A stretch of DNA of 64,000 nt, taken from the NCBI GenBank assembly GCA_021432635.1, contig MU270069.1:62001-126000 (forward strand). The letters are read 5' to 3'. The DNA is from Thozetella sp. PMI_491. Its lineage: Eukaryota; Ascomycota; Sordariomycetes; Chaetosphaeriales; Chaetosphaeriaceae. The notes beneath the pieces were generated by a model, which saw only the letters and a list, made by a program, of their open reading frames with translations, did no database searches and was not told where the DNA came from. A program made the position numbers and the translations under genes. Below are positions 3,840 through 39,589 of the stretch, one piece after another; position 1 is the first letter of the stretch; every line of letters begins with the position of its first letter.

Positions 3840-4323
3840 GCACAACTCGCCACTAGATATTTACTAGCATGATACGAGACAGTCACTGTCCAAGTTTTGA
3901 GAGCTTGAAACCCAGTGAGCGACTCTCTTGGCTCTTTCCTAGCCCGTTTAGTCTCGCTAGGGGTTGCATTGTACGAACGACCGGGCAGCGTGAATGGCAA
4001 CCAATCTGAGGCAATTCCTATTTGTACATACGCTGATGAATAATCGGTACAACTTCGCTTTGGTTTGCATGTCTTGGCAACGGCGCCGGAGCTCAGTACT
4101 TGGACGGTTTGCTTGGTTGGTCTTACGATTGCATTTGCTTCCTATTCCTACAACAGCAGCAAATTGCTTTCCGCCGGCTGCCCTTTTGAACTGCGAAAAG
4201 TGGTATCATACCTACCGAAGTGTAAACCCTCCAGCGCCGTCCGTCATGATATCTGCCTTAACCAGCTTTCATAGTAACTCGGTAACTTCCCCCGTAAATC
4301 CACAAGGCCGCGTTACATCCGGG
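3840..4323. other. Convergent 3' intergenic region
   Basis: A region of about 480 bases between the ends of the transporter and the HOS2 gene. It should hold both 3' UTRs and polyadenylation signals. No gene was seen. Confidence 0.6.
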
Positions 4324-5820
4324 TCATAGCTCCATAGGAACTCCCATACCCTCCTCCCTAGTCAATCTCAGCTTTTCGTTTCTCTCTTCTTCTTCCTCCT
4401 TGAGCTTATCTTCCACGTCGTCCCGTATGCCCCCAAGGTCCGGGGGGATCACCTGCAGCTGTACACTGGGCGCGAAGTTGACAAAGCGTAGCTGCTCGTG
4501 CACGTGTGCTACGATCTCGTTAAGACGCTTCTGAGTGTTCTTGTTGGTGCGTGGCTCTCCGAGAATCTGTTCTAACGTCGGGAAGAGCGTCTCGTGACGG
4601 AACTGCTCGCGCCATGGCGTGTGGGCGGGAATGATGGGGTCAATCTTGTCCTGTGCCCCGATGGCGATGGCCGTCTCGAACGCCCATGCGCGCGCCACGT
4701 TGCGGGGCGTGTATCCGCCGCCGCCGAAGATGATCATGGGGATACCAAGCTTCTTACAGAACTCAACGCAGGCGCCATGGCCTTGCACCTGCAAGTTGAA
4801 GCGACCGAGTCGGTCGCCCGCCAGTGAGTCGGCACCGCACTGGAGGGCGATGACGCTCGGACGGAAAGTCTCGTTGCACTTGCCAATGATGCTCTCAAAG
4901 AGCGCTGCGTACTGCTCGTCCGTTATTCCATCATTCAGCGGGACGTTGATGGCGTGGTGAGAGCCAGGGTTGTGCTCGCTACGCGGGCCGTTGTCCTCGA
5001 GAGCGCCGGTGCCAGGGAAGAAGAATTCGGGTTGATACTTGTGGAAGGAGACCGTCATGACGCGGTCAGTCGAGAGGAAGGCCTCCTCAACCCCGTCCCC
5101 ATGGTGCACATCTATATCAATGTAGAGCACCCGTGGGTAGCACCGTAGGAGCTGGAGGATGGCGATGACGATATCGTTGATGTAGCAGAATCCAGAAGCT
5201 TCGTACTTCTTGGCGTGGTGAAGTCCTCCGCCCCACGCGATCGCGATGTCGGACTGTTTATTGCAAATCTTGCGCGCAGCGTCAAGTGAGCCACCGGCGG
5301 ACATGGAGCAGTAGTCATACAGGCCGTGGAATAAGGGACAGTCGCTGCCTCCCAGGTTGAACCTGACCTCGCCCGCCTTGTCGGGGTTGTCGAGGTCCCG
5401 GGGAGTGTCCTCGGCAGGGGCCGTGGCTAAGTAGTCCAGATAATCGTTGGCGTGGAACGTGTTCAACTCCTCGTAGGTGGCGGCCCGGGAGATGTAATTG
5501 TCCATGGCGAATGACATGCCGTAAGCGGTTACAAGGCTCTTGGTCAGAGTGAGACGCCATGGCTTCATGGGGTGCGTCTGGCCGAAATGGTGCTTCTCCA
5601 TCTCTGGGTTGGTGTGGAATGAGACATTGTAGCCTTTAGGCCGGACAATATTGTACTTTTGCGCCGCCCTCTTTATCTTGTTGAAGTACATGGCATTCTC
5701 CTGGGGGTCCGCATGGCCGAGGGGAGCGATATACTCCTCGACGATCGGCTCGTCGGCGTCAACATTGTGCGGCAGGTAGTTGGGCTTTGGCGTCTTGTAT
5801 CTGAAGGCCTCGATATCCAT
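4324..5820 (-). CDS. HOS2: Class I histone deacetylase, Hos2 type
   Basis: A zinc-dependent lysine deacetylase that in yeast is the catalytic subunit of the Set3 complex. Its orthologues in filamentous fungi (HosA, MoHos2) affect development and secondary metabolism. It is an intronless frame of 498 residues from the ATG at 5820. The frame is open 33 bases further upstream, but only with a GTG, so I use the ATG giving MDIEAFRYKTPKP. Visible catalytic features are the tandem histidines in GGGLHHAKKYEASG (His201-His202), the zinc-binding YIDIDVHHGDG (Asp237, His239), the second Asp in QCGADSLAGDRLG, and the glycine-rich loop with tyrosine GGGGYTPRNVARAW. The N-terminal ~35 residues and the C-terminal acidic/basic tail (KLKEEEEERNEKL) lie outside the fold. 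The N-terminal sequence fits Hos2 better than Rpd3. It is divergent from the ING gene, with a 1.15 kb shared upstream region. Confidence 0.92.
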   Translation of the reverse strand: MDIEAFRYKTPKPNYLPHNVDADEPIVEEYIAPLGHADPQENAMYFNKIKRAAQKYNIVRPKGYNVSFHTNPEMEKHHFGQTHPMKPWRLTLTKSLVTAYGMSFAMDNYISRAATYEELNTFHANDYLDYLATAPAEDTPRDLDNPDKAGEVRFNLGGSDCPLFHGLYDYCSMSAGGSLDAARKICNKQSDIAIAWGGGLHHAKKYEASGFCYINDIVIAILQLLRCYPRVLYIDIDVHHGDGVEEAFLSTDRVMTVSFHKYQPEFFFPGTGALEDNGPRSEHNPGSHHAINVPLNDGITDEQYAALFESIIGKCNETFRPSVIALQCGADSLAGDRLGRFNLQVQGHGACVEFCKKLGIPMIIFGGGGYTPRNVARAWAFETAIAIGAQDKIDPIIPAHTPWREQFRHETLFPTLEQILGEPRTNKNTQKRLNEIVAHVHEQLRFVNFAPSVQLQVIPPDLGGIRDDVEDKLKEEEEERNEKLRLTREEGMGVPMEL

Positions 5821-6973
5821 ATTGAGGTTGGGGCACAGCCCAGGCGGCGTCACCCGGTTCGGGTAACTTCAATATTGCGTGGCCTTGGGGCGGTTGCGAC
5901 CAACTATGTTGGGGTTAATAACTGGCGTCGAAGAGCAGGCGGGTTGGCGTCATACAAGAGCGAAGGTGAGGCCCCTTGCACGGCTGCGGGGAGCAAGAAG
6001 AAGGATGCTGCCGATCCAGGGTCCGTCGCCAGGCGAGATGCTGAAAAAAGTTGAGGAAGGACAGAGGTTGAGGATGGAGCCGGGTTGCAGATTCGACGTT
6101 GAGATGCTGTCGGGATCGAATGAGCGGGCGAATGAGCTTGCTCGCCGTCAGTCGCGCAGTGTGGCAATCAAGCCCCGGTCGTCTTCCGAGCTAGTACTAT
6201 TCTAGCTTGGCCATCCAGAAATGATGCGCCACCACGGCGTTAGCCAGCCCGGCTCACAACCCGACGAAAGCCAGCCAGGGCCCACAGAAGTTTTGGAGGT
6301 CTACTATTGGTCCATTATGGGGGAGGCTGAACAAGCCGTGCTGTGCTGTCGCAATGGAACGAGATGTGTCATTCACCCGACCTGCAGAGTAGCGATTTTT
6401 TTTTCCCACTCCCCACCGCCAGCACGTCCTCGCCTTCCCAGCATTCGAACTACTTTGACGCATTCCATCTTGCAGGGGTGGCTGATTGGGATTTCCATCC
6501 AGAGCGGGAATTATTTTTTTTCCCTTTTGGCAGTTCAGGTGAGCCCACTCAGACTTGGACCTCCTCGTTTTTGTGACTGCCACCCGACCCGTCCCCCCGG
6601 GCCTTCGATGTGCTTCTCTGTCACCTTGGCCCCCTCCCCCATCGCGGTAGCCGAGGCCCATATCATATCATCGAAGTCAGATCGGGCCAACCCCTTCTGT
6701 AGTCTGCCTCTTTTTATTTCTTTCTGTGGACAAACCCCAAGTCGTGGTTGATGGGCAAACCACGGCTTCCTACCACCGTATCGCCTCTCTGAACACCACA
6801 TCACCCAGCATCCCTCCTTTCATCATCACCCTCATCACCAGCCACGAGTCTTCGTGGCCTAGGAGGGTGGGGCATATGCTACCCCAACTGCCCAGCTGCC
6901 TATACCTCGCCTAGCCCTCCCTGACAAAGCGCGGAGGGGCTTGTCTCCGTGCTCGACGCGTCCATCATTAACC
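5821..6973. promoter_or_regulatory. Shared divergent promoter region of HOS2 and YNG2
   Basis: A region of 1.15 kb separates the start codons of the deacetylase (minus) and the ING protein (plus). It includes T-rich tracts near 6390 and 6510 and a pyrimidine-rich stretch before 6900. No convincing internal gene. Its role as a shared promoter is inferred from geometry only. Confidence 0.5.
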
Positions 6974-19605: not shown

Positions 19606-21210
19606 GGGGTTAATGAGAGGCGTTTTGACGGTTAACGACAATTGAGCATCTTGTGGATAGCAGACGTGCAAGCGTCCCCTACTATACACACTGCATACCC
19701 TTGCAGATATGGGTATATATATGTCTCCCATATAGATAATATACCGATGCTGTAAGGGTGCTTGTGGCGACTAGTGATGAACCCTGTCTCCGGGAAAAGG
19801 GTAACTATCGAACTACTCGATATAACTTGATGCCTGTTGCCGAAAGATGCTTGCTAGACTCTTTTCACGCTCAACCGTTCTGAGCAGTTGAGCCAATGGG
19901 GATGCAACCGCCGGACGCCGACCGCCATATCGCCACACCACAACTTGGTGTGCGAGGGCCTGCCGGTTGCAGGTTACACCCGAGCTGGCTTGTATGTGAG
20001 GTGATGTGGCAATTGTGCATTTTGCGCAAATCGCCGGCCAAGATCCGATCACCATCATGCAGCGTGGCTCTGGCCACTCAACTGGCGCGATTCTCGGGGG
20101 CTCCCCCATCGCTAACTTTCCTTGTGCAGCATAGCATCCCTACCTAGTATAGCTTATCTTTGTGCCGGCGGGCGCCGCGCAAGAATGGCTTTTTGGCCGT
20201 GCTCTGGCGCTACAGTCTGCATCGACGCATCTCTTTTCCTAATGGACCTAGGCGCTGTGATTTGCTACTCAGTCCCACCCCCTGCCGTCGCCAACCTGGT
20301 GAGGCCTGGACCGCATGGACAAAAACCTCGACTTGCATAAGAAAGATGGCGACTGCTACGCTCGGCTTGAATTTATGACACAAATTTTTTTTTTTTTAAA
20401 AAAAGAATCGAATCTTCGGGCCGAGGTCTGCGAAGAGGCGGCGGATTGTTTGCCGGCCCTAGGGTAAACAAACAAGACGAGCCTTGTGGGGGAATTAAGG
20501 AGAGGAAGCGGCCGCATCGAGACTCTCCGAAGTCAGCAGGTTCGGGGATGCGCAAGGCTAAGGCACCGAAATGCGCTAAGCTAGGTAGGACAATTACCCA
20601 AGCTTGCCAAGGTGCCTTGCCTATCATTAGTCAAGGTGTCTAGACGGTTTGGCCAGTGCCTCTCCGCACCGTTGGAATGGAAACTTCAGCTTTCTTGTTG
20701 CAAGCACACCTAACCGTCGGTCCCGGGGGTACCAGGAACGAAAATTTAAACTTTCGCTTCTCTCCGCTGCCAGGTTCAAGCGCCTTCTATTGTTTTGCGT
20801 CCGAAGGCGAATTGAAACATCCTCCCGCGATGCTGGTTGGGCTCGGCCCGTGGGGCTAAGCCGTAGCGCGGTCCAATCCCGTTGCCCCGCAGCCGTCCTG
20901 TTCGATTCGGGCTGGAAAGCTGACGCTGGAAAGAACCGGGGTCCCTTTCTCCAGCTGCTGGCCCCCCCCTTGTGGGAGAGCTCTCAGGCGGGGCGGTCGG
21001 TGGCGCTTGTACTTTTCGCCAACTGTAAAGGGACGGATAGACACACCACACACCAGCCACTCGATTCCCACACCCGTCGCAAAATCAAACAACAACATTG
21101 ACCGCTCCACGGCGTCAACCGCTCCGCAAGACACCCCATCCCCACGTGCACCGCCGATACCACGAGCAAACGCAGATGCACAGGATTCGAGAACCTATTG
21201 AGCGGTGAAG
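19606..21210. other. Intergenic region before the leashin-like gene
   Basis: A region of 1.6 kb holding the cellobiohydrolase 3' UTR and the upstream region of the giant gene. It contains a T13-A7 run at 20385-20404. No gene was supported. A stop codon (TGA, 21199-21201) in frame just before the giant gene's ATG fixes that start. Confidence 0.6.
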
Positions 21211-24200
21211 ATGATGCGTGAGCCCCGGCGGCGGAGCCCTGAAAGCTCCCGTCGTCGACGCGCCGAGCGTCGAACCTCGCGGGAGCAGCTCGCCGCCGCC
21301 GCCGCCATGCCTTCGCAAACCTCTCTCCGATCGCGCGCCGACTCTACCACCTCCGGCTCGTCCTCTACTTCGTCATCTCTCCTCAACATCTCCAGGAAGA
21401 GCCGGCGCTTCGGCCTGCGCTCCTTCTTTACCTCACCCAAGAAGACCCGCCGGTCTTCCAAGCAGCGCTTCCGCCACAAGAACGGCTCGTCGTCCTCCGT
21501 AGACAGTGACCTCGCATATGGGCAGGGATACATTTCCAAGGACTCTCTAGACCGCCGCCAACGCTCGAGGGGGGAGCCTGAAGGCTCCCAAAGCCACCAC
21601 CAGCACCAGCCACCCGAGGAGCCGCTGTTTGGCCCTGATGGACGGCCCGTCTTACACCGCGCCCAGACCGATGAGGAGATTCTGGAGCTAGGCCGCAAGC
21701 TCCAGGCCTACGCCAAGGCCGAAAACCGAAGAGATCTGGAGCGCGCGGGCCGGCCGCGCCCTTCACAGTTTGCGACCGCCGCTGCTGCCATTGGCAAGCT
21801 GTCGCGCCACAACACGCTCGAGAGCAACCGGGGCATAGGCTCCTCCAAACCCCATGATGAAAACTCCGATGACGGCGACTGGGAGTCGGCCTCGGAAGAC
21901 GGCTCTAGCGACGACGGCCTGAACTACGGGGGTGCCCACTTCTCAACCCAGCACCTGCCCCTGCAGAACGCCCCTCCCCCTGCGGTCGTTTCGCAGCGGC
22001 CTCCCGAAGCCATACGCCCTCCTCATCGCAAGAGCTCTGCCGTTGATCCGGCCATGTTTGGTCCTGTCAACTCGCTACGCGGCCTTATCAACACGCCTTG
22101 CGGGTTCAGGCCCGGCGAGTACCGGCCCGGCGAATACAATCGACCAGGGCCGGGCCAACGCGTGGAAGATCCCATCCCGCATCCGAGCAGTGCTTCCATC
22201 GAGGCCCGTCCCATGCGTACCGTCTATGCTGCCCCTACGTCGGATCCTACGAGATTTGAGGCCGTACCAGGGTCCGTTGTATCGTCACACCAGGATACAA
22301 GCGGCTTCCCACGGCCTGCTCCGATCCCTATCCAACCTTCTGTGCCTATCCAGGCGCCTAAACCGCGTGTTCCTGTCTCTACTCGTGTCCTGGAAGAAAA
22401 GCGCATGGAAGAAGAGGCGCGCGACTCTCGTAGTTCTCGCCGCAAATCTGAAGGTAAGGGATTTGCCGAGGCTGCTGTTGCCGGTGTCGCCGCTGCCGCC
22501 ATGGGGGCTGCTGGGGCAGCCATCTTGTCTGATCGTAAGGACAAGGACAAGCGCGACCGAGACGACCGGCGTGATCGTGAGCGTGAGCGTGAACGTGAAC
22601 GTGATCGCGAGCGCCAGAGAGAGGAGCGTGAACGCAGTTTGAGAGAGCTCGAGAAGAAGGAGACGGAGAAGAAGGAGCTTGAGCGACAGCGTGAGCGAGA
22701 CGAGAAGCGAGAACTCGAGCGGAAGGATCCTGATCGCATGGATCGACGTAGCTCAAAGCGAGACAGCGTGAAAATCATCGACGACCGCGATGGCAAGCGT
22801 GATGAGAAGCGTGAGGACCGGAAGGAGGAGAAACGCAGCGAGCTGCGCCCCAATGACAGGAAGCCGACCCGTGAAGAGAGACGGGCGGCCCGCGCTGAGA
22901 CTCAGCGACTGCTCCGCGAGGTTCAGGCCCAGATTGCCCAGGAACGAGAGAGGGCTCAGCAAAAGGACCAAGGCTCCTCTGCAAATGCTAGTCAGCCAGT
23001 CGACGATGCGGTGGGTCAACGACGAACCTACGAGGCGGTGGCTTCTTCGTCCTCCAGCCAAGTCCCTATTGACCCTTTCCAATTTCAGGTTCCTGACGAC
23101 GCTTTCCAGACTCCCGTCTACGCCACTCCTCGGCGCCCACTGACTCCCAGCGTCACCACTGTGGAGAGGGAACCTAACTTCTCGCGCCTCGAGAGCGACC
23201 CGCACCCCATGGAGAGGCTTAGCCGTCGTGATTCATACGAGTATGAGCTCAAACATGCCAAGGCTCTAGCGGAAGAGACGCAGCACTCTACGATCGCAGC
23301 CCACCCTGAAAATATTGCTGTTGCCATCGCTGCCGTTCAAGAGCAGGACCGGGTGCGCGAACGCAGCCGGGTCCGGGCGAAAGAGCCTGTCCGAGACTCA
23401 GTTCAAGAGGCTGCTGACGCTGTGTATCGCGAGAGCCGGCTTGCCAAGAGACTCGAGGAAGACCAGATTCGTTCGCGCAGTGCCTCTCCTAACCCTTCCG
23501 AACAGGATGACGAGCCCGTGGTTCGGATCGTTACGCCACCAGAGATGGACCGACGCCACGCAAAGAGCCGATACGACGGACCTAACGCTGACGTCCGGAT
23601 CGACAATATCATTGTTCCTCGAGACTTGGTCAAGTACAAGGCCCCCGCCAGTCTGGGGGAGAGAACAGTGCCTATCTTCAAGTCGAGGGACCCCTCATGC
23701 GAGCGCGAACGCCCCCTTCTCAACCTAGTTCTACCAACTCCAATCCCGACGCCGTCTCCTGAGAAACAGCGCGCCAAGGAGGACAAAAAAACCGACAAGG
23801 AAGACGGTAACGAGTCTGAGCCGAAACCTAAGAAACAGGTTGTCATCAACTCCAAGGGCGACGTCGTCGCTCAGCCGGCCGAGACCGATGCAACCACAAG
23901 GCAAGCGGGGGCTAGTCGCAACGAGGAGCAATCCGAGGAGCCTCGAAGTCTCCCTCATGATGAACCCGAGGTCAGGCCGGTGTCCACAAAGAAGAAGGGA
24001 AAGAAGAGCAGTGGTGTATGGAGCATCCTCGCCGCTGCCGCTGCCGCTAGTGCCGCAGCGGCTGCGACTACCTCAAGCGACAAGGACGGGAGCCGCAAGC
24101 CCTCCGAGGAGAAGCAAGAGACGCAGGAGGAAGTGAAGCGTCGCGAACCATCGGCTGCCGAGAGCCATGACCGAGATTCTGCCCCAACTTTCACATCTCT

Positions 24201-27200
24201 GGTGAATGATCTGGACGACATGCCGCCCAAGATCGGCCCCAAACCTTCCAGCCCCAGAAGCTCCCAGCTGCCTGGCGCATTCGCCGACGACCTGGACTTC
24301 ACCGCCACGGTCGCTGCCGGCCTTCAAGGCACTGGCTTTGACCCCAACATTGTCATAGATGACCCAGCCTTCAGGCGGCGAGATTCGCCACCTGGCTCTA
24401 ACGAGGGCTTCTACAAGCAACCTAGTGCTGAAACTGTCACTGATCTTGGCATTATCAACCAGGAGCACTCGCAATCTGGTGACAAGGAGCTTGTACTTGA
24501 CGACTTCGAAACACCGACAAAGCCGAGCAAGAAAGACCGGAAGAAGGAGAAGAAGGCCTCCAAGCGCCAGAGCATCGGCCTAGGAGATATTGATGCCCCC
24601 GAGGTGCTTCCGGAAATCGTCGACATCCCGAAAGGCAACGACTTTGAGCCGCTTAAGAGAGACACGCCAGAGAAGCCTCTCGCATTTGACGAAAATATCT
24701 CAGTTCGCCCCCTCGAAGAGACTGAACTACCCAAGCCGGGAGATGTCGTGGAAGATGAGTGGGCAGAGCCTAAGCTGAGCAAGAAGGAGCAGAAGAAGCG
24801 AGACAGGGCAAAGGCCCGAGCTCTTGAGGAAGAACAAGAGGTCGCCTCTCCTCGTGACTCACAACCTGTAGAGCCAATTGAGGCAAGCGACGACGAGTTC
24901 CAGCCGAAGCTCAGCAAGAAGGAGCAGAAGAAACGGGAGAAAGAGGCTGCGAAGGCTGCGGCATTGGCCGAGTCAATCGTTGAACCCGTCACCGGGGAGC
25001 CCCAGCCAGCTGCGGTAGCCGACGCAGGTGAAGATGAATGGGCCATTACGCCAAAGCTCAGCAAAAAGGAGCAGAAGAAGCGTGAGAAAGCTGCCCGGGC
25101 TGAGCAGCTTGCCAAAGAGGACGATGACTTGACCCGTGACCAGCCCGAGCAACTAGACGAGTTTGTTGACGCGAACGAGGAATGGAACGACACGCCTTCG
25201 TCCAAGAAGAAGTCCAAAAAGTCCAAGAAATCCCCCCCGGCCTGGGAAGATGCTCAGGAGACTCCCGCAGAAGAAGGCGAGATCTCCGTGCCAGTTGACG
25301 CCTTCGACGACCTAAAGGCTGGCAATGATGAGTGGGACCAGCCGAAGAAGTCGAAGAAGGACAAGAAGAACCGCCGCAAGAGCACAAAGGACGACTATGA
25401 TCCTCCCGACCCTGACGACCCTCCAGACAGAGCGAGGGATCCTTACCAACCGTTCGACCGCGATGTCAGTTCTGTGGTCTCCGATCCTACGCGGTACGAC
25501 GACCGGTATGAGAGCAAGTCCAATGGCAGTCGTGCGGATCCCGAAGACGACATGAAGTCCGTCGCCTCGGTTCCAACCACTAGCGAGGATCTCAAGAAGA
25601 AGGAGAAGCGTGGCAGCGGTTTCTTTGGGATGTTTGGCAGAGGAACCAACGGCACAACAGACGAGACGGCTGAAAATCAGTCAAAAAACGTTAATGCCGG
25701 CACCCTTGGCGCAGGTGTCGGCCTGATGGGCGCTGCTGCTGTCATCGCATCCCAGCTGTCCCATCTGAAAGCCACCCAGGTTCCCGAGGAGGAGCCCTCC
25801 AAGACGATTGTTGATGCCCCAGGGCCGCCAAGCCGCCCGCGGAGTACCAGCCAGGATTCTCATACCGTGGATCCGGAGATCGTGGAGCGCACCATCAAGC
25901 CCGCCATCGACCCCCAGTACGGCGATCTGCTTCCTCTTCCTCCCAGTGTACCTGGTTCCCCAAAAATCGAGCAGGACCTTCCTGCTCTCCCCGACAGCCC
26001 CCAGCTGTCTCAAGATGAGCCATCCGCTGCAGCTACCACGGATGGCCCAGACCAGTCCGGCCGCCTCCGGAGCGTGAGTACGGGCTCCCAGATTGTGGAT
26101 CCTGAAATTGTCGAGCGTGCGATCAAGCCGGCTATTGACCCACAGTATGGCGACCTGCTCCCCCTCCCGCCCAGTGAACCTGGGTCTCCCCAATTCGAGC
26201 GTGATCCAGAGCTTCCGCCCCTTCCAGATAGCCGCCCGGATACGCCGCCCGAGGAGCGGGAGGGTTTACGCATTAGGAGCCAGACGCAAGGCCACTTGCG
26301 ACGGCGGAGCGCTTTCGATACGCCTGCCAAATCTCCCAGTCATACTGCGATCCCCTTGCAGCTGCGCTTCGGGTCTTCGCCGGGCGGGCTGCTAAGGTCG
26401 TCTCCGCTCCCTTCCCCAGTTACCCCCTCCAATACTGAGTTTGGCAGTACGGGCAAAAAACTTCCCCGTCCTACCTCGTGGGACAGCAGCCGTGAGATCA
26501 AGCCTCTTCTGCTCTTGGACAAGGCGAGTTCCGGCAGCCTCGGCTCAGAATACCGGCGTCTACAGGGCCGAACCGACTCGCTTGGTTCAGACACGGATTC
26601 TCCTTCTGGCCGTGTAGGACTGGGCATCGTACCTTCACTCACCGATACGACCCGGAAGGTTCGCGCCTATACGACAGGCAGCTCGCCGGAGCGCTCACCG
26701 AGCCCCCTAAGCCGGACTTTTGACAAGAAAGAAGTGGTGGAGGTGGCAGACCAAGGCCAGTCTGCCCTCCTGGCTGCTGCCGGCGTCGCTAGTGCCGGAC
26801 TTGTTGCTGCTGCCCTCTTGCACGATGACCAGCATACTGGTGAAGTGGATTTCGTGTCCAAAACGATACTGCCCCTTAGCGAAAAGGGCAAAGACCTTGA
26901 GATCGTAGAGCCGCCAATCAACTCTCCCTCGGCTTCGGAACCAGCCATGCTCCCTTCTTCTGGACATGATGTACCGTCGGAAGAATTTGACTTCGTGCCT
27001 GCGAAGAAGGGCAAGAAGGGCAAGAAGTCTCAACGCAAGAGCCAGCCACCCGACTGGGACCTAGAATCAGAAGCCACAACCCTCGTGGAAGCTGAAGGTT
27101 CTAGTATTGTTCTGGCCCCGGCAGAAGACACTGTTCTGCCAGTCCAGGAGAAGGACGCTTTCGAGACGAGAGGGTCCAAGGGGGGCAAGAAAAAGAAGAA

Positions 27201-30200
27201 AGGGCAGACTTGGGAGCCGGAACTCGACCCAGAGCCGATTACCAAGGACGATGTTCTGGAAGACTTCCCCGCAACCAAAAACCAGCCTCAGGAGCCTTCT
27301 CCAGTTGTCCCCGAGCCCGGGGTTAGTAGCCAGTATGATGAGCCTCCGAGCTCGTTGGAGCGACCCATCACCACCAAGAAAGGCAAAAAGAAGAAGGGCA
27401 AGAAGGCACTGGCCTGGGAGGATGTGGAAGAAACGATCACGTCTTCTCTCAGCTCACTCGAGCAACCGTTGCATTATACCGAGGCAACATCATCAGCCCT
27501 GGACACCGGCGCTTACACCCGGGATGTTGGATTAAACGACTTAAACCCAGAGATTCCTCAGCCGGTTCACACGAGCACCTCCGAGGCCGGGCTTGAGCCC
27601 GTGTTGGCGCCTGCTGAACGAAGCCTAGATACCCTGGCTTCTGGAACCGAGCCGGTTGTGCTAGAACCAGCCCCACAGACACCGCCATTGGAGCCCAGCC
27701 AGCCCGAGGAAGACACGTTCTACACTCCGGAGAAGGGCGAAGACAAAAGTGCGTTTGTCTTGGAGCCACGACCGGTCGACTTGCCCAAGGATACGCCAGA
27801 GGATTGGTTCCCCCCCGCCAAAAAGGGCAAGAAAAACAATAAGAAGGCCGACAACTCGTGGGATGTCGTGGAAACCTCAGACAAGGACGCACAAGGCGCT
27901 GTTGATTTGGAAGCTCTCCAAGAAGCCTCTGGTGGCCCCTCCGAGCCAGCTGGCGCGGCCCCGGAAGCCTTTAGTGGCCCGTCTGAAAGGCAGTCCGGCG
28001 GTCTGGAGCTGGACACCGAAACTCCGGTAGAGCGCGTTGGGCACGAGGAGGTGCCTCCAGCACCGCCGAAGCCCGAACAGGCACCAGAACCCCCTTCCAG
28101 CACCTCTATGGGATTCTTCCCGGCAGCGTTTGCTGTGGGCGCTGCCGCTGTCGGCTCTTTCCTCGGCAGGAGCAAACGTGACTCGGCGAAATCGTCTCGC
28201 GACGTTTCGCCAGGCTCGCCAGGGCAGGAAAGCGAAAAGCGGGACGCGGACAAGTTGGTCGAGTTCCCAGCCGCCCCATCTCAGCCCCCTGTGGGGCCGG
28301 GATTAGACGGCCCCAGCCGGGAGCCTGACCAGGATCCGTTAGGCCTGCAGGGGTCTAGCAGCCAGGACAAATCAGTGGGCGACACAACAGGGGCCGGCCT
28401 GGACACCGCTGTTTCTGTGCCCAACACAGCGCAGCAGCTCCCCACATCAGACATCAACGTCTCCAAGGTGTCCACCAATGTGGGCCCGCGAGAAATCGGT
28501 GAGCTAGGGGAGCTCGCCCAGCAGGACGACCAAAACGAGCGGCTGGGCCCGACCCAATCCCAACCTCTTGTCGAGGAACCTTCAAGTTTTGCTCAAGAGC
28601 CCGACCAACCCGGGCCACTTGATGCTGCCGACCAGACGCCCGCCGAACCAATGGACTGGGATTCGACACCCGGCAAGAAGAAGGGGAAGAAGGGCAAGAA
28701 GAAGCAGCGAGGCACCCAGGATGCATGGCCCGAGGACGAGCCTGTCCAATCCGCTGAGGTTGAGATCCCACTCGACGCAACCAGCCTGCCCGGCCCCTCG
28801 GCGGCGTCCGAGCCGCTCGGCGAGGTCGACCCGAGCGCCAAGGAGGGGCTTGAAGACCCGGCAGAAGACTTATGGTCTCAACCAACGGGGAAGAAGGGCA
28901 AGAAAGACAAGAAGAAGCGGCGGCAGGCCACACAAGACGCTTTTGAGGAGCCCCCATCAGAAGAGCCAATCAGCCACCAGCCCCGAGATTTTAACGACGA
29001 CGATGGCGAAGTTGCCGCGGTTGTTGATGACGATGTGGACAGCGGGATCAAAGCTGCCTCTCAGCCGCAGTCCCAAGGTGACAGCGCCGACAAGGCTCTA
29101 GTCGAAGGCCCTATTGATGATCTCTGGGATGACCCTTCTTTCGGCAAGAAGAAGAAGAAGGACAAGAAAAAGAAGCGACAAAGCACCTTCGACTTCGACG
29201 ATGTTCCGACAGCACCAGAGACTCCTACCATTCCGGAATCACCAGGAGTGGCGCCCAACCCAAATGCGGAGCCCGTGACAGAACCCCAAGTCACCCCCGA
29301 GGCTCCAGATGCGGCCGATGAGACCTCTGATAAGGCGGCTCCTGAGGCCTCCCCAGACGACACTTGGGAACTGCCGAGTTCTGGGAAGAAGGGGAAGAAA
29401 GACAAGAAAAACCGCCAAAGTGTCCAGGATATCGCCATGTCCCTTGCAATGGCAGAGCCGCCCTCCTCTGATTTGAAAGAGTCTGAATGGAGCGTTGGTG
29501 AGGAGGCCGTTAATACTCCTGAGCCTTCCCTGGACCCTTCCCTGGACAGCGCTAGTGCTGTTCACGCTACCGAGGTGTCGCCCGATGACCTGTGGGAGGT
29601 GCCAAGCTCTGGAAAGAAGGGCAAGAAGGGCAAGAAGGGGAAGCGGTCGGGCTTACAAGAGGCTGGGGGGTTACCGGAGTCTTCGGTCGATCCGATGGCC
29701 ACAGAGTCAGGCGAAGACCACAGAAAAGGAGACGCTAGCGCTGAGGAGCAGTTGCCTTCACGCGAACCTCCGGTTTTGAGTACCGCCGACGAATCGGAAG
29801 CCAATATCGATGTACTTCCTGATGTCCCTATGGAAGCGTCGCCGTCTGACGACCTTCCTACAACGACCACCGGCGAGATCACCCTCTCGGAGCCAACAGA
29901 ACTAGCTGACGACGGAGACCAAAAGCTAGAGGACCCAGCCGGAACGGCAGAACTCCTTCCAGAGTCCGACTTCGAATTCACGCAACCGCTAAAGAAGGGC
30001 AAGAAGAAGAAGAAGTCACGCAGCGTCTCTATTTCTCCTCCTAGAGACGACCTGAGTCCAACCGAGCCGTCGCAGCACAATTTGGAGGACGAATTCGCAG
30101 CCAAGACCGAAGATTTCGACGACTGGGACATGCCTGAGTCTAGCAAGAAGAGCAAAAAAAAGCGCCAGAGTGTCACATTCGCCGACCCTATTGCAGAGCA

Positions 30201-33200
30201 TATGGAGATTCCCGCCATTTCGGAGCTGCCAACACCCTCCGCCTCTCAAGAAGACCTCGCTTTGAGCGACCAGCCCGAACCATCCCCTGCAAATGAGACC
30301 CGACTGGAGGAGACTGACCAGGTCATGGAGGATGTAGTAGAGCATGAACTGGCTCCCGAATCAACAGAGACTATCCAGAAAGAGCCTCACCAAAAAGAGC
30401 CTCGGGCTTCACTCGCCCCCGCAGACCTGGCTGAGGACAACAAGCCAGAATCTTCTCGCGCTGCCCTCGCTACAGTAGCCGGTGTTGGCGCCGTTGTCGC
30501 TGCTGGCATTCTTTCTTCCGATGAGCAAGACAAAAGTGGATCGCCAAATCTCGATAATTCATCTCAGGATCCGATGGAAGCCTCTCGTTCCCTTCCCGAA
30601 TCACAGCCCGAGGCACAGGACGAAAGTCGGGAAGCTATGTCTGAAGACGATTTCGCTTGGGGTAGCAAGAAATCTAAGAAGGACAAGAAGAAGAAGCGGA
30701 AGGGCCAGAGCCAAGACGAGGCCCAGCCGCTGCCCGAACCTAGCGAGCAAACAGGAGCGACCGAGGAACCACAACCGACCACAGAGCTTGAGAACACCCA
30801 ACACTCGCCCGGTAGGAGTCTAACTGCCGAGCCAGAAGTCGTCGAGACAGAGGACGCCGCGATACCGCTTGATGAGCCCGATACCTTCATCACCAAGAAG
30901 TCAAAGAAGGACAAGAAGAAGCGGAAGGGCAAATCGCAAGATGACTGGGAACCACAACCGGAACCCGAGTTGATCAAGGCGGAAGAACCATCATCAGCGA
31001 CGCTTGAGCCCGGACCCGGGCTTTCCACCGAATCAACAGCGATCGGAGAGGAGCTCGTGCAGGAGCCTGACCCTGTTGGGGAGGACGTCAAAGAGCAGCC
31101 AGTCGACGACGAGCCAGAATTCTTCCCCAGCAAGAAATCGAAGAAAGACAAGAAAAAGCGCAAGAGCAAGGCACAGGACGACGACGACTGGACCATCCAT
31201 TCCGAACAGCCCAAGTTCGAAGAAGAATCGACGGCCACCACAACCCCCCTGGATGTTGAAACCGTCAGCCACGAGCAACCCACGATCAGCAGTGACGTGA
31301 CCGAAGAGCTAGAGCCAACAACACCTGAGAGCCGCTTACTCTCAGAAGCTGTTGACGAGCCCGAGATCGTCGTCAGCAAGAAGGGCAAGAAAGGCAAAAA
31401 AAAGAAGACATCGGCAATAGATTGGGAGCTCGAGGAGACCCAGTCTCTAGAGCAAACGTCTCATGTCAATGCCTCACTGACAGACGCCCAGGTGGATAGC
31501 AGCAATACCATACCTGAACCAACACCCTCACCCCCGATCGAGCAAGGAGATGACGAGTTCGCAAGCTTCATGCCAGCCAAAAACAGCAAGAAGGACAAGA
31601 AAGTGAAACGTATGAGTTTGGCGCTGGATGAGCCCGCACCCGAGAGTCTGCCTGTAGAGCAAACTGAGCCCGAGGATGGCGGCGTTCAAGACAGCCCAGC
31701 TCATATTGTCGAAAACCTGCCCGATATGGAGCCAGAGCTCCCGCCCGTCGAAGTCACACCCTCAATCACGGACGCTGTGGGCATTGAGACCAAAAATGCC
31801 GACACTATTCCTGCTGATTCTCGAGAATCTTCCCAGCCGCTAGCTGAAGACGTCCCTACCGATTCGAGCTCACACAAGGGGGAGTTGGGCGAAGAGGGCG
31901 ACTCCGATTCAACCTCTCAGCTAGCTGTCCCAACCAATCAACTTAGGGAGGTTCCCTCGATAGCTTCACTTCCAGGCAGCTCTGAGCTTGAGGAGCTACT
32001 GGGAGGGGTTGAGTATATAACTCCTGACCCGATCGACGAAGCCCAAATCCAACCCGGGGAAGACATGCCAATGCTTGCAGCTGAGAAACCCGAGTCTGTC
32101 GAGCCACAAGAAGTCGAACCAGCCTCCAAATCCACAGAGCCTGAACCGGAATTCTTTGCTACAAAAAAGTCGAAGAAAGACAAGAAGAAGAAACGCAACA
32201 GTCAGGTTCAAGATCCTTGGCTAGATGAGTCTGAAGAAACCAGCCCCCTCCCGGAAAAGAATCCCGAGATCGAATCGCCTGCCGAGCCCGAAATCGAAAC
32301 TCAGCCAAGCGCGGAGCCAAGTGACGAGTTTGAACCTTTGCCGACCAAGAAGTCGAAGAAGGAGAAACGCAAGGCAAAGAAGGCGCCCAAGTCGACTGAC
32401 GATTGGGATATGACGGAGCCGGCCAGTAGCCAGGAGTCAACGTTAGCAGAGGACCACCTACGAGCTCAGGAGCGTTCAACTTTGGAGGAACATGGCACTA
32501 CCGAGGCTGGTTCTGAATCGATGGCGCCACTGTCAGAGGCGGAGCCGGCCCATTCTCCCGAACCTGAGGTGGATCTGAGTCTTGGGGCAAAGTCGTCTCT
32601 AGAAGACGGCGCCGAATCCATGCCTGTTGTTTCTGCTGCCATTCGGGCATCTTTGCCCGCCGGAGAGGCCGACCCAGAGGCACCTCCGCCTGTCGAGACG
32701 GCCAACGAGGAGCCTATCCCAGAAGAAGCATCACCCGAAGACTTCTTCCCTATCACTACAAAGAAGTCTAAGAAGGACAAAAAGAAACGCGGTACCGCTC
32801 AAGGGGAGTTGGAACAGGCCCTTCCTGCTATTGGCGAGTCCAGCTCACCTTCCGCAACAGAAGGAGAAGCTACAACTCTGGTCACCGAAGAGCCAGAGAC
32901 AATGCAAGAGGAGACTGCCGAGGAGTTGTGGACTGCGCCTTCCAAAAAGTCCAACAAAGACAAGAAACGCAAGGGCTCCAAGCTACCTGAGTCCGAGCCA
33001 ACGTCTGGCAGCATCACTCCTTTTACCGAAGAAGCGAGTGTTCCTACTCCAGAGACCCACGTCGAACCTAAATCCATTGGGCCTGAAGCTGTCCCGCCTT
33101 CAACCAACCTGGAGAATGCTGAGTCTCAGATCATTCAGCCGGAGGACGAGTGGGCTATCCCAACGAAGAAGTCAAAGAAAGAGAAGAAACGCAAGGGCTC

Positions 33201-36200
33201 CAAGGTCACCGATACTGGACCTTCTAGCGCCGCGACTCTCGCTGAAGAACCTACGCTCGTCGTTGAAGAGCCAATACCTGCGGTTGAAGAACCCGCGCCT
33301 ATGGTTGAAGAGCCCTCGCCTATGGTCGAAGAGCCAACGCCTTTGGCTGAAGAGCCGCATTCTTTCGTCCGAAACCAAGACGCTTCCATGGAGGTCGAAA
33401 TACCGGCTCCCTCAAACAGTCTTGAGGAGGTCGAGCCTAGCACTCTGCAACATACTGAACCTGAGGATGAGTGGGCGATGCCAGCCAAGAAGAAGTCTAA
33501 GGACAAGAAGAAGCGGAAGGGCTCCAAGATCGCTGACTCGGAGCCTGCTTCAAGCGTCTCAACTCTGGACAAGGAGCCTAGTTCTCTAACTCCAGACACC
33601 CCGACTGAACTCGAAACCGCGGCACAGTCAACTACTTTTGAAGAGACTGGGCCTGAGATTCTACAAAGCGCTGAACCGGAGCCCATTCAGCCGGAAGATG
33701 AGTGGGCGATTCCAACCAAGAAGTCCAAGAAAGATAAGAAGCGCAGCAGCTCCAAGGTCTCGGAATCTGAACCTGCTTCTGGCCAAATGACACCAGCGGT
33801 GGAGGAGCGGAGTACCTCACCTCATCCGAACAGCAACCTGGCCATCTCGCTCGGTGCTGTTGCAGCACTTGCAACAGTTGCTGCAGTCAGCAGCAGCCAA
33901 GAAGACGAGACGGTTGACGCAGCGAGCAAGGTGGAGGAAGACATTTCTGAACCCGCCTGGCAAGAAACTCAGGCTGAGGACGAGTGGTCGGTGCCGATCA
34001 AGAAGTCAAAGAAGGATAAGAAACAAAAAGGCTCTAAGATGATCGATACCGAGCCTCCTTCTAGTGTTGCTACTCCTCCTGTGCCCGAGCTCGCCCCGAG
34101 TCCTACGGAACCTGCGGCCAATGCCCCTCTTGACACCAATACTTCGACCAACGCGGCCCGCGAGATACAGGTCGAACAACCTGAATTGCTCGAGGAGCCA
34201 AAAACAATACCTGCCCAAGAAGGACCTCTGCGCGAGACAGTTCCTGACCACGAGCCCGAGGCACAGGCTGAGGCCGATTGGTTCATTCCTACGAAGAAAT
34301 CGAAGAAGGACAAGAAGCGCAAGGGGTCTAAGGCAGCTGGATCTGAGCCGACATCAGGATCTGCCACGCCTGCAGAAGAGCAATCAAGCATCGCCGTCAT
34401 GGTCGAGGACGAACCCCGTTCTCTCGGCCTAGACAACCCCCCCGCGGACTCCAGCCAAGATAATCAGCCCGAGATCGTGTCTGAAGCGCTACTTGAAATT
34501 CTCCCAGAGCCCTCGCAACTCGAGGCTTCAACAGGGGCCACCCCCGAGCCACTCTCAGGCCCCACCTTCGAGGATTTTGCAGACAAGAAGACGGAGGCAG
34601 AGCTAGAAGACGAATGGGCCCTCCCCGCAAAGAAATCGAAGAAAGGCAAGCGGATGGTCAAGAAAACTGGCGCGGAGTCAGCCTCCAGGGTTGCCACCCC
34701 TCAAGAGCTAGAAGAGGCGCTACTAGAGGCCGAATCTCAAGGAGAACCAGCCATCTTGAAGCCTCTCGAGGACTTCCCAACAGACTCGTCGGCGAGGGAG
34801 GCAATTGCGGAGGATTTTTGGGAGGCGCCGACCAAGAAGTCCAAAAAGAAGGGCAAAAAACTAGCCTCCCAACCTGATTCTGGCGCCATGACTCCTGTTG
34901 CCGAGCAGCTTGAGGAAAATGTCAGGCTCGTCCTTGTGGAGCCCAGCCAGGTCACGGATGAGGTTACGCAGCCGGTACACGTCGTCAACCATGATATCGA
35001 GACTATTGAACAGGAGAAGACCGACGTAAGCCGTGACCTCACGGCCGAGGAACCCGCAATCGAAGAGATTCCGAAAGAAGAGGACGAGTCCCCTGAGTTC
35101 GCCGTCAAGAAGTCCAAGAAAGGCAAGAAAGGGAAAGGGAAGAGGTCAGATTCGGAGTCGGCGTCCGGCACTGCCACACCGGCTGCTCGCGATGAAGCTC
35201 TGTCCACCGACGTACTTTCTGCCGCCGTGCTTGCGGACGCCGCGGCTGCTGGGTTGAGCGCCCTTGGCTCGGAGACTGAGCGCCAAGAGACCAAAGACCA
35301 AGATATTGCCTCGGTTAGTCGCAAACAGTCGAAGAAGGATAAGAAACGACGGAAAGGAACGGCGCTCGTCTGGGACGATGAGCCTCCAGTGCAAGCCGAG
35401 CCGGTCGAGGAAGATGTTCCTGCCATTCCCGACGCGTTTTCAAACGAGCGCTCGCTCTCCACTGAGGTATTAGACAACCCCGAATGGGACAAGATCGAAA
35501 TCAACCCTGCCCTTACCGGCTCCTTCAGTCAATCACCAGACAGGGGCTTCACAAGCACCCCGACCATTGGCCTGGGCTTGATTGCCAACCCACCAGTCCT
35601 CTATCCCCGCAACGAGCCGTCCCCTAAACTTCTCACCGCTCTTGAGACGCCTCCTCCCAGCCAGCCAGAGCCCGAATATCATGGCTTCGAAGAAGCCTTG
35701 AGGAGCGACGAGCCCAGCTCAAGGCCTCCGAGCAGCCACGTCCCGCACGAGCCTCCGTTTGAAAGCTCCGGAATCCGCAAGAAGGCAAAGACAAAGGAAC
35801 CAACTGATGCGGAGCTGGATGAGCCGGTGGTTTCCTCGCGCGATGTCTCTAACTCGTTTATGGAGGGTGGCCTAGATGCAACTCCGCTCGCCACAGACGC
35901 CGCTCGTGGCCAAGAATCCGCAAATACTTTCCTTCGTGAGGACTCGCAGCCAATTGAGAAGGAGCTAGTGAAACTAGATGATAAACCCATCCGAACCACA
36001 CGAGAGTTAGCTGCGGAGTACTTGGAGCACCATCACACCTCCGACGTTCACCTGGTCGGCATGGAGGGACTAAGTGGCGACAGGCCAATGGACATTCCAG
36101 TCCACATGGGTGTGGTGTCTCCTAACATGGGTGTGGTGTCTCCTAATCGGGAACTCGCTGCATCGTACCTGGACCACCCTCACGAGCAAAGCCCGGGCAA

Positions 36201-39200
36201 GCCACAGGGTAAGAAGGCCAGGGGGAAGGAGCCCGCTGTAGAAACGAAGAGCGAGGACAAGAGCGTTGCCGAAGCCGCCGCTGTCGCCGGGGCGCTGACA
36301 AGCGGCGTGGCAGCGCTGGCGCAGAAGTTTGGCGGAAGCAAGAAGAAGGGTAAGAAGAAGAAGTCAATCGACAAGAGGACACAGCGAGACGATGACATGT
36401 TTGATGATGTGCTCTGGGAGGGTGCTGACCGCAGACCTCTGGAGGGTTCCCGAATGGACACGATACAGGATAACTTCTGGGATGTGCCTGAAGGGGACGA
36501 CGCCGAGAAGGGCTGGGACGAAGAGGCGGGAGAAACGATAAAGGAGATGGGAGAGCCTACCAAGGAGGCCACTGCAGGCGAAGAGCGTCAGGAGACCAGA
36601 GAGAGCGGCGGGTTTGACGCCGGCAGCGGCTTGGAACGCCAGGACTCGGATACGATTCCCCGACAAGAGCAGGGAAAATCCAAGAAAATAAAGAAGGAAC
36701 GTCAACGGTCCCGCTCGCCGTCGCCAGTCCAGCGAACCTTTTCCTTCCCAGACGACATTGCAGACGAGGACGCCTTCGCAACCCGAGATGTTCACGAGCC
36801 ACAGACCATCTTACCGTCCATCGAGCCCGCTGATGATCCGCCGCGGGCACTCCGACCCACCCCGAGCCTCGACTTCCGCCGGTCCTTGTCAAGCCTGCCG
36901 CCGGTGAAAGAGGAGGGGTCTGATGAAGACGAGGAGCAGCGCAGGCACCGTCGCCACCAACGTACTTCGCACGGTAGCTCTCGAAATCCGCAGGCCTCGC
37001 CAGACACCAACCGTGACAGTGGATTTGTGACGGGCTCGCCGCACATGCCACGGGGAAACCTGCACGCGGACGAAGCCATCCGCGATAGCGGTGTGCACCT
37101 GAGAGAGTGGGCTGAGTCGACGCCCAAGAGCACGCCTAAGCACCGCGAGCTGTCGAGATTTGATTCTACGCCGGCGCGGCGATCCACCTCCAGCGTAGAG
37201 GACGAGCAACAACCTCGCCATCACTCCCACGAAGATGCAAAGCACAGAGATCTCAGGCGCTCTCCGGCGGGCGAGAGGAGCCTGCGCGACAAGGCGGTCG
37301 GGCCGGTTGATACAGCTCACCGGCTGCGGGAGCCCTCCCCGCCACCCCGCACCCCGGAACCTGAGAAGCTGGCGATCAAGAAACACACCAAAGACGCTCC
37401 TACGCCTTCTCGAGAGCACCAGCAGCAGACGCCACAGCAGACGCGCAGCGTGTCTGATAGGGCGGCCGACAAGAGGGCGGCCACAACTCCGGACCCCCAC
37501 CCAAGGCGGGTCATATCCAATACCAGCCTCTCACGTCTCCGCACGCCTGAGCCACTCAACTTGCGGCCTGATTCTCCAGGCAGCCTCCGCTCATATTCAG
37601 GCACCCCACCCCTCCGTCGGGTGGACAAGCGATCCGTGTCCAGCGATTTGCGGTCCGTGTCCCTCAGCCAACGAAAGGACGAGAAGGCTGGAGACGACAA
37701 AGCAACCCAGCCAGCCTCCTCCTCCACCGCCTCCGCTCTCCCCGGCGTCCTCGTAGCTGGCGCAGCCGCACTGGGAGCCGCCGAGCTCATTTCCAGGGCT
37801 GCACAGAACAACACTCCCGTCGCTAACGAAGGTCGTGTCCGCGCCAAGGACATGGCCGACGTCTATGTAAGTACACATCTACTGCCATTGTCTTTTTTTT
37901 GCTCTCGTCACCGCCCGCCATTTGCCCTGATTGGAAAAAGAAAAAACATCACGGCGATCGGTCGCTCAATTTTTTATTTTTTTTTGGCTCTTGTCCTTAC
38001 TTCCCTACCGATTTGCACATGAGAGCTCTGCCGCTGACTCTCGACCCCCGCAACAGGATGGCTACGGCGAGGGCCGCATCGGCTCTCCGCGCTCGCCGAC
38101 CAGGCCGCACAGCATGCGGCGGCGACAGAGCATGCAGGTGCTCGAGCTCGAGTCCCGAGTCGAGCAGCTGGTCGCCGAGAATCGAATGCTCAACGACGCG
38201 CGCGCCCACGCCGAGTCGGCCATGGGCCAAAAGGCTGCTGGCATCCTTGCCGAGCGCGACGGCGAAATCGACACCCTCAAGCGCTCTCTCCAGCAGATGC
38301 AGCGCGAGGTCGAGCGCTTAACCCAGATCAACGAAGGCCTCTCTACCTCGACCTCGACCATCGCGGTTCAACACCACGAGCGCGTCCGCCAACTGGAGGC
38401 CCAACATGCCGAGGCCATGCGCGCGGTCCAGACCGAACACCAAGATGCCACCCGCGAACTCGAGAGCCTACGCGGCACCCCGGCCCACCATGCCACCTTG
38501 GAAGAAAAGGACGCAGAGATCGCCGAGCTGCGGGCGCAGCTCGAAGCAGCCAACACGCGCATCCGCTCCATGCAGGAACAGATACTCGCCGCCAACCCGG
38601 CCGGTAACTCGGACTTCCTCACCATCAAGGACGTCGACCACTTCGACACGCGGTGCCAGCAGCTCTGCTCGCACGTGCAGCAGTGGGTGCTGCGTTTCAG
38701 CAAGTTTAGCGACATGCGTGCGTGCCGCAAGATCTCCGAGATCAACGATGAGAAGGTCGTGGACCGACTCGACAATGCCGTGCTGGACGGTTCCGATGTC
38801 GACGTCTACCTACGTGACCGCGTCCGCCGGCGCGACATCTTCATGAGCATGACCATGACCATGATCTGGGAGTTTGTCTTCACGCGCTACCTGTTTGGTA
38901 TGGACCGCGAGCAGCGCCAGAAGCTTAAGACGCTCGAGAAGCAGCTCCTCGAGGTCGGCCCCCCGGCCGCGGTCCGGCAATGGCGTGCCGTCACCCTAAC
39001 GCTACTCTCGCGCCGCTCGCAGTTCCGCGACCAGCGCCACAAAGACACCGAGGCCGTCGTCCAAGCTGTCCTCGGTGTGCTGGTCAAGATCCTGCCGCCG
39101 CCCTCGAACCTCGAGGACCAGATCCAGGCCCAGCTGCGCCGTGTGATGCGCGAGGCGGTCGACCTCGCCATCGAGATGCGTACCCAGCGAGCCGAGTACA

Positions 39201-39589
39201 TGATGCTGCCGCCACTGCAGCCCGAGTACGATGATACGGGCGAGCTGATCGAGACGGTCACTTTCAACCCAGCCCTCATGCACGAGCGCTCCGGCGACTC
39301 GTCCCTGACCAATGACGAATTGGCCGATTCTACCGTGCGCGTCGTCCTCTTCCCCCTCGTTGTCAAAAAGGGCGACGACGCTGGCCGCGGCGATGAGGAG
39401 GTGGTTGTGTGGCCGGCCCAGGTCCTCGTAGCCCGCCTTCACTCAAGCGGCCGTCGGTCTGCTCGCATGGTCACGCCGAGCTCTGACGCCGGCGGCGCGA
39501 GCCTGTTCACGCGCAGTGTGGGCGGCAACGGGAGCAACGTTACCATGTCAGCCGCCGGCGGGGCCGACTTCACCGATGATGCCATTTGA
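21211..39589 (+). CDS. lah: Giant leashin-like Woronin-body tether ('involucrin repeat' protein)
   Basis: Two exons, 21211-37866 and 38057-39589, encode 6,062 residues. By family it resembles fungal proteins annotated as involucrin repeat protein. These include Aspergillus Lah and Neurospora leashin, which tether Woronin bodies to the septal pore or cell cortex. A TGA four codons upstream fixes the start at one of two ATGs (21211 or 21214). N-terminus: Arg/Ser-rich (RRFGLRSFFTSPKKTRR). Residues ~445-590: Arg/Glu/Asp-rich likely single alpha-helix. Residues ~1100-5170: more than 35 Lys modules (KKSKKDKKKRKG type) alternating with acidic Pro/Glu/Ser linkers, many with a DDW or EDEWAIP lead-in. 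About ten Ala/Gly-rich hydrophobic segments are interspersed. C-terminus: coiled coil ~5580-5735 (LELESRVEQLVAENRML), then a conserved helical domain ~5738-6020 (HFDTRCQQLCSHVQQWVLRF, SMTMTMIWEFVFTRYLFGMD). The family match rests on memory of these motifs, not a search. Confidence 0.8.
22538..22980 (+). other. Arg/Glu-rich probable single alpha-helix in the leashin-like protein
   Basis: About 145 codons in which RE, ER, DR and EK pairs alternate almost without hydrophobic residues (RDRERERERERDRER...), ending in REERRAARAETQRLLREVQA. Such i/i+4 charge patterns form stable isolated helices rather than coiled coils. This is seen directly; structure is inferred. Confidence 0.7.
25867..26180 (+). 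repeat. Two-copy internal repeat in the leashin-like CDS
   Basis: The segment VDPEIVERTIKPAIDPQYG with DLLPLPPS and a following PGSP occurs at about 25867-25965. It recurs at about 26095-26190 with few changes (VERAIKPAIDPQYG). The unit is ~228 bases and includes the preceding RS-ST-S sequence. Confidence 0.85.
33247..33354 (+). repeat. Short tandem V(E)EP heptad repeat in the leashin-like CDS
   Basis: Six consecutive units of the form (V/A)EEP(S/T/I/A)P(M/A/L) are encoded head to tail. The codons vary, so the tract is not a simple recent expansion. It is likely a flexible acidic spacer. Confidence 0.85.
36106..36147 (+). repeat. Near-exact 21-base tandem duplication in the leashin-like CDS
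   Basis: Two adjacent copies of a 21-base unit differ only at the last base and encode MGVVSPN twice. They lie between two RELAA(E/S)YL(E/D)H motifs at about 36001 and 36148. Confidence 0.95.
37867..38056 (+). other. Single intron of the leashin-like gene
   Basis: A 190-base phase-0 intron, GTAAGT...CAACAG, between MADVY and DGYGEGRIGSPRSP. It is T-rich. If retained, translation continues 51 codons to a TGA at 38020-38022. The extra tail ends in a hydrophobic stretch (FYFFLALVLTSLPI). Confidence 0.85.

Follow-up and report, generated by a model that had tools for sequence, protein, structure and literature searches.

A very probable undivided leashin gene with a modular spacer in the ascomycete Thozetella sp. 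PMI_491

Introduction

Leashin (Lah) is the Woronin-body tether of filamentous ascomycetes, and the described systems differ in what the locus makes: Neurospora has two separate products (LAH-1 and LAH-2), whereas Aspergillus has one fused protein. This contrast, drawn in an initial annotation of the DNA studied here, agrees with the literature. We analyzed a leashin-like gene on the forward strand of a 64,000-nucleotide stretch from Thozetella sp. PMI_491 (GenBank assembly GCA_021432635.1, contig MU270069.1, positions 62,001 to 126,000). This whole stretch is called the window, and coordinates refer to it unless another locus is named. Based on its neighbourhood, length, charge and part of its C-terminal anatomy, and on the HEX-1 gene found in the same genome, the gene is very probably leashin in its undivided form.

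The Neurospora crassa gene NCU02793 was predicted to encode one protein of 10,821 aa, and stop-codon, tagging and promoter experiments then showed two transcription units (PMC2690989). The same report describes a 2,607-bp alternative exon that LAH-1 reads in a different frame, seven new lah introns (six in frame) detected by RT-PCR, homologs of 5,936-7,480 aa, and central regions that are not conserved in sequence between species; it also proposes elasticity of Woronin-body tethers by analogy with titin PEVK (PMC2690989). In Aspergillus fumigatus Lah, a coiled coil is reported from -492 to -315 relative to the C-end and a helix at -240..-220; the helix-bearing fragment was found in the membrane pellet, and two V-to-E changes abolished targeting (PMC5345055). 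A single deletion of 29,585 bp in Neurospora is reported to hit NCU10987, so (NCU02794) and lah (NCU02793) (PMC10580951), and hda-2 is listed as NCU02795 (PMC9426557).

Results

Gene model

The plus-strand frame is open from stop to stop over 21202..38022, or 5,606 codons. From the ATG at 21211 (the ATG at 21214 is an equally possible start), exon 1 (21211..37866) extends to a GTAAGT donor at 37867 and comprises 16,656 bases, i.e., 5,552 codons. It is followed by a predicted intron of 190 nt (37867..38056; GTAAGT...CTGAC...CAG, with the branch-like CTGAC upstream of the CAG acceptor) and by exon 2 (38057..39589; 510 codons plus stop), which contains the coiled coil and the C-terminal domain. 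The splice sites were placed from the sequence, and the joined model (21211-37866 / 38057-39589) encodes 6,062 residues. The proposal of one stop-free coding exon of 16.66 kb within a 6,062-residue gene was thereby borne out.

The open frame is not a chance event, because its length has ln P of about -204 given the single-base composition of the window, and because codon position 2 is the G+C-poorest in all 28 blocks of exon 1, including the shorter last one. The G+C content of codon position 3 holds at 0.54-0.74 along the exon. A scan of exon 1 for introns with strong donors gave zero intron-like units, where 200 synonymous shuffles averaged 0.9. A wide scan combining donor, branch and acceptor, which recovers the predicted intron at 37867, gave 10 units, four of them frame-keeping, against an average of 13.0 in 200 synonymous shuffles. 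The region 21211..37866 is best modelled as one exon, although short in-frame introns may lie within it.

Read-through at 37867 stops at 38022, and an isoform retaining the intron would replace the pore domain by a 51-residue tail that ends in a hydrophobic stretch, possibly a membrane tail anchor that would allow pore-free tethering. The tail frame runs for 51 codons before its stop, and its 19-residue hydropathy is 1.74, but 122 of 2,000 intron shuffles attain this hydropathy and 213 of 2,000 remain open for as long. Moreover, pyrimidine tracts translate into hydrophobic residues in any case, and another frame of the intron reaches 1.52. We consider this isoform extremely unlikely and retain the spliced model.

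The initial annotation called the exon exceptional for any eukaryote, which is overstated. Giant exons are also found in animal genes such as titin and mucin 16. Within the family, the closest case is A. fumigatus AFUA_2G08060 (annotated "involucrin repeat protein"), which likewise encodes a single giant protein with a long uninterrupted coding stretch. Its codons 2316, 2640, 3546 and 4679 are known from reported positions of single-nucleotide polymorphisms (PMC8227032). The genomic distances between these positions equal three times the codon distances (extra 2, -1 and 0 nt), so this lah gene appears, at the reported positions, to have no interruption across a stretch of at least 2,363 codons (about 7.1 kb). 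It differs in having about 142 nt extra between the reported codons 779 and 2316, whereas a single exon of 5,552 codons is predicted for the Thozetella gene. The exon thus looks very long but in keeping with the leashin family, of which the gene seems an ordinary member.

Evidence for leashin

A soft/PRO40-like gene was found at 57.8-60.9 kb of the contig (C55), some 22 kb from the start of lah and with other genes in between. This supports the leashin identity, because soft neighbours leashin in Neurospora. The predicted protein is rich in Ser, Pro and Gln in its N-terminal half and contains a WW domain and the beginning of a PhoD_2 phosphatase domain; the layout reported for SofT is 1,213 aa with a WW domain at 505-533 and a putative phosphatase at 676-1213 (PMC10522335). 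The length of 6,062 aa falls inside the homolog range. The whole protein has a net charge of -318, and its spacer is rich in P/E/S. The N-terminal 344 residues (21211..22242), at the position of the Woronin-body-binding part of Neurospora LAH-1, are basic as had been claimed, with a net charge of +17 (+19 over the first 100 residues). NCU02793 is alike in lying close to soft (NCU02794), in its acidic P/E/S-rich spacer and in a continuous gene prediction that includes both ends. It differs in its length of 10,821 aa, its many introns, its R1 (18 copies) and R2/R3 (33 copies) repeats, and its two transcription units.

The C-terminal anatomy was compared with that of A. fumigatus Lah. In the two proteins the coiled-coil start and a hydrophobic helix lie at nearly equal distances from the C-end, although the helix match is soft. 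A proline-free run of 124 residues (5570-5693; 38108..38479) begins 493 residues from the C-end. It contains, at residues 5613-5654, the strongest heptad pattern among the protein's proline-free 42-residue windows, which was matched in none of 300 shuffles. Further downstream, a moderately hydrophobic helix, IFMSMTMTMIWEFVFTRYL (38837..38893; residues 5813-5831, -250..-232), lies near the transmembrane position of Aspergillus Lah. It precedes the C-end by 231 residues, within 12 residues of the A. fumigatus position. The C-terminal 231 residues (38894..39586) take the position of the LahC "extracellular" part, which has 219 residues in A. fumigatus.

The genome also encodes HEX-1. The best Protein Data Bank (PDB) match of this protein is "Woronin body major protein" (E 1.1e-104), and its C-terminus is SRL. 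It is identical at 132 of 152 aligned positions to PDB chain 1khi, which we take to be the Neurospora structure. An N-terminal extension of HEX-1 is also present in chains 8qlw, 8qnu and 8qlu, and the 1khi match does not cover this stretch.

Several results weigh against the leashin identification. Neither Pfam nor PDB yielded a leashin match, and nor did viral or prokaryote contigs when scanned with the last 329 residues. The Pfam search, run with six pieces spanning all 6,062 residues, gave 17 matches for exon 2, each under the curated cut-off, and none in the five exon 1 pieces; exon 2 gave eight PDB matches, none convincing (best E 0.0095); and the contig scans gave 13 viral and 19 prokaryote pattern matches, none of them confirmed. 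The coiled-coil run ends at -370 versus -315 in A. fumigatus, 55 residues off. The helix at 5813-5831 is weakly hydrophobic, unlike its A. fumigatus counterpart: its hydropathy over 19 residues is just 1.05, it contains E and R, and it is only the second-highest segment of exon 2. Residues 5886-5904 (-177..-159) are more hydrophobic, at 1.35, and the match in transmembrane position was therefore partly chosen by position. For the last 329 residues, AlphaFold, supplied with three rows that came from two further loci, gave an unusable model with a mean pLDDT of 41 and a pTM of 0.26. The R1 and R2/R3 consensus sequences of Neurospora were not matched beyond chance in the protein, their best scores being reached by 661 and 571 of 1,000 shuffles, respectively. 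Since the central regions of leashins are reported to be unconserved between species, we did not treat these repeats as defining the family. Five PMP22-family matches were found in the genome, and the peroxisomal membrane protein WSC could not be told apart among them.

The second neighbour adds little. A class I histone deacetylase-like gene has its main exon at 4324..5868 on the minus strand, and cannot be assigned to hda-2: human HDAC1 and yeast Rpd3 outscore HDAC3, with fission-yeast clr6 just below HDAC3. Judged by its locus numbers, Neurospora would have the order lah, so, hda-2, whereas the order here is so, deacetylase, lah. This neighbour carries little weight because the hda-2 type is not established and the order differs.

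The gene could alternatively encode an unrelated giant disordered scaffold, leashin-like only in size and layout. The lack of a direct leashin match, the failure to find the Neurospora repeats and the weak C-terminal helix would fit such a protein. However, the nearby soft/PRO40-like gene, the coiled-coil start at the A. fumigatus distance and HEX-1 in the genome argue against it, as does the finding that no other locus in this genome is a close match to the N-terminal region or to an intact full-length C-terminal domain. We judge an unrelated scaffold very unlikely and keep the leashin assignment.

One product or two

According to the initial annotation, the fused frame predicts pore-tethered Woronin bodies. 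The expectation of one product stands as likely, but an open frame alone does not predict it, because NCU02793 was also predicted as a single gene before it was shown to be split. The alternative is a locus of the Neurospora type, with separate proteins for the N-terminal Woronin-body part and for the C-terminal pore/tip part, the latter expressed from an internal promoter. The Neurospora locus was itself first annotated as one frame of 10,821 aa, its second promoter lies inside the predicted gene, and the Thozetella gene may likewise contain one that a sequence reading would miss. Against it, the Thozetella protein has a length within the reported undivided range, and codon-position G+C content shows no break along exon 1. 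The HEX-1 N-terminal extension is a further, weak hint that the species stands outside the Neurospora/Sordaria group. No LAH-1-like alternative exon was found in exon 1, where the longest open run in another frame has 328 codons, compared with the 2,607-bp Neurospora exon. This run (32603-33589) was considered as a hidden exon of that type and rejected, since 56 of 200 synonymous shuffles reach 328 codons. Finally, no second locus with the N-terminal region was found in the genome itself (next match, E 0.18). We regard a split locus as unlikely. From the length, the absence of a long run in another frame, the unbroken coding signal and the single N-terminal locus, the gene is likely to make one product. 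Given one product, pore tethering of the Woronin bodies is likely by analogy with the Neurospora fusion experiment and with Aspergillus.

Modules of the spacer

The spacer had been described as low-complexity. This holds to the extent that eight of the 21 tandem-repeat rows lie within exon 1 (the longest covering 113 bases), but dispersed modules are present at the protein level. The four blocks of residues 1001-5000 have a charge sum of -331 and PELS fractions of 0.37-0.44. In this acidic context, we counted 34 lysine clusters, defined as 12-residue windows with at least six lysines, between residues 1104 and 5055 (24520..36375); 200 shuffles counted in this way averaged 0.29 with a maximum of 2, and a slightly different counting rule gave 0.2 and 2. 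Thirty of the 34 stand directly behind an acidic-aromatic stretch, such as EDEWAIPTKKSKKDKKRKGSK, that is, at least three D/E plus W or F in the 14 residues preceding the cluster. For 34 random spacer positions, this context was found in 7.1 cases on average and in 15 at most (2,000 draws).

In addition, ten 19-residue segments have a hydropathy of at least 1.5, where 500 shuffles averaged 0.29 such segments and never exceeded 3. Their composition is rich in Ala, with Gly, Val and Leu, and they lie 350-1,130 residues apart. Segments 1 to 4 are at 22471..22527 (residues 421-439), 24013..24069 (935-953), 25696..25752 (1496-1514) and 26764..26820 (1852-1870), and segments 5 to 7 at 28108..28164 (2300-2318), 30460..30516 (3084-3102) and 33838..33894 (4210-4228). 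The remaining three each include one acidic residue: D in segment 8 (35212..35268; 4668-4686), and E in segments 9 (36265..36321; 5019-5037) and 10 (37735..37791; 5509-5527). Moreover, a spacer unit with the identical core IKPAIDPQYGDLLPLPPS is present in two copies 76 residues apart, at residues 1562 and 1638 (25849..26310).

Regular spacing of the modules was considered and dropped, as the coefficient of variation is like that of uniform placement (1,182 of 5,000 uniform placements were as low). A result on minimum spacing was set aside, because the counting rule itself bars near neighbours. A shorter core, LLPALPES, was also rejected as a link to the Neurospora repeats; 33 of 1,000 shuffles reach its score, but it was picked after inspecting the protein. 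The main text of the leashin paper by Ng et al. never mentions lysine or alanine and has hydrophobic once, in a figure colour key.

Other copies of the C-terminal domain

The last 329 residues have two further matches in the genome, a decayed copy on contig C8 and a distant paralog on contig C35. The first (G000:C8:732.5-733.8 kb; L015:7481-8821) is 52% identical over 292 residues and has one in-frame TAG, and no frame of at least 150 codons was found in the 1.8 kb that precede it. Its helix retains an acidic residue and an arginine (IWDFIFTRCLFG), like the lah helix (IWEFVFTRYLFG). Because these residues are kept and are unusual in a membrane span, the helix may belong to a soluble domain, although the membrane-pellet and V-to-E results in A. 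fumigatus (PMC5345055) speak for a membrane helix. The paralog (G000:C35:311.2-312.9 kb; L018:3229-4870, minus strand) shares with lah a coiled-coil-like N-terminal part followed by a Lah-like C-terminal domain, 25-27% identical. Unlike lah, its two overlapping frames (321 and 276 codons) show neither the spacer nor the lysine modules.

A stretch of 60 residues at G000:C80:260772-260951 is 87% identical to the end of this paralog and is perhaps a recent fragment copy.

Other observations at these loci

An ING/PHD-finger gene (6863-8362) lies beside the histone deacetylase gene, between the soft-like gene and lah. A glycosyl hydrolase family 7 (cellulase) exon (18621-18821) is found just upstream of the leashin-like gene, and a uroporphyrinogen decarboxylase exon (43410-44015) downstream of it. 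At one of the PMP22-family loci (L006), a masked run adjoins the match.

Discussion

In the arrangement we propose, the basic N-terminus would bind the Woronin body, as it does in Neurospora via WSC, and the acidic spacer of about 5,000 residues would serve as an extended, flexible leash. Anchorage at the rim of the septal pore would be provided by the coiled coil and C-terminal domain, keeping the HEX-1-filled organelle close enough to plug the pore upon wounding. We infer the binding partners, the pore localisation and the single transcript from experiments in Neurospora and Aspergillus.

For the leash itself, a sticker-and-spacer spring, in place of a featureless elastic linker, can be suggested, speculatively and with considerable doubt. 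Lysine clusters would pair electrostatically with the acidic stretches, and the ten Ala/Gly segments would self-associate within or between Lah molecules, which could let the tethers extend and bundle reversibly and in a load-dependent manner. As part of the same suggestion, the C-terminus may be anchored by a helical domain that is soluble and does not truly span the membrane.

A reading frame alone cannot settle whether a leashin is fused or split, and this matters for predicting the position of Woronin bodies from genomes. In what otherwise looks like an ordinary leashin, the spacer architecture is worth dissecting: since the spacer of this probably undivided protein has countable modules, the elasticity of the tether could be tested by removing them.

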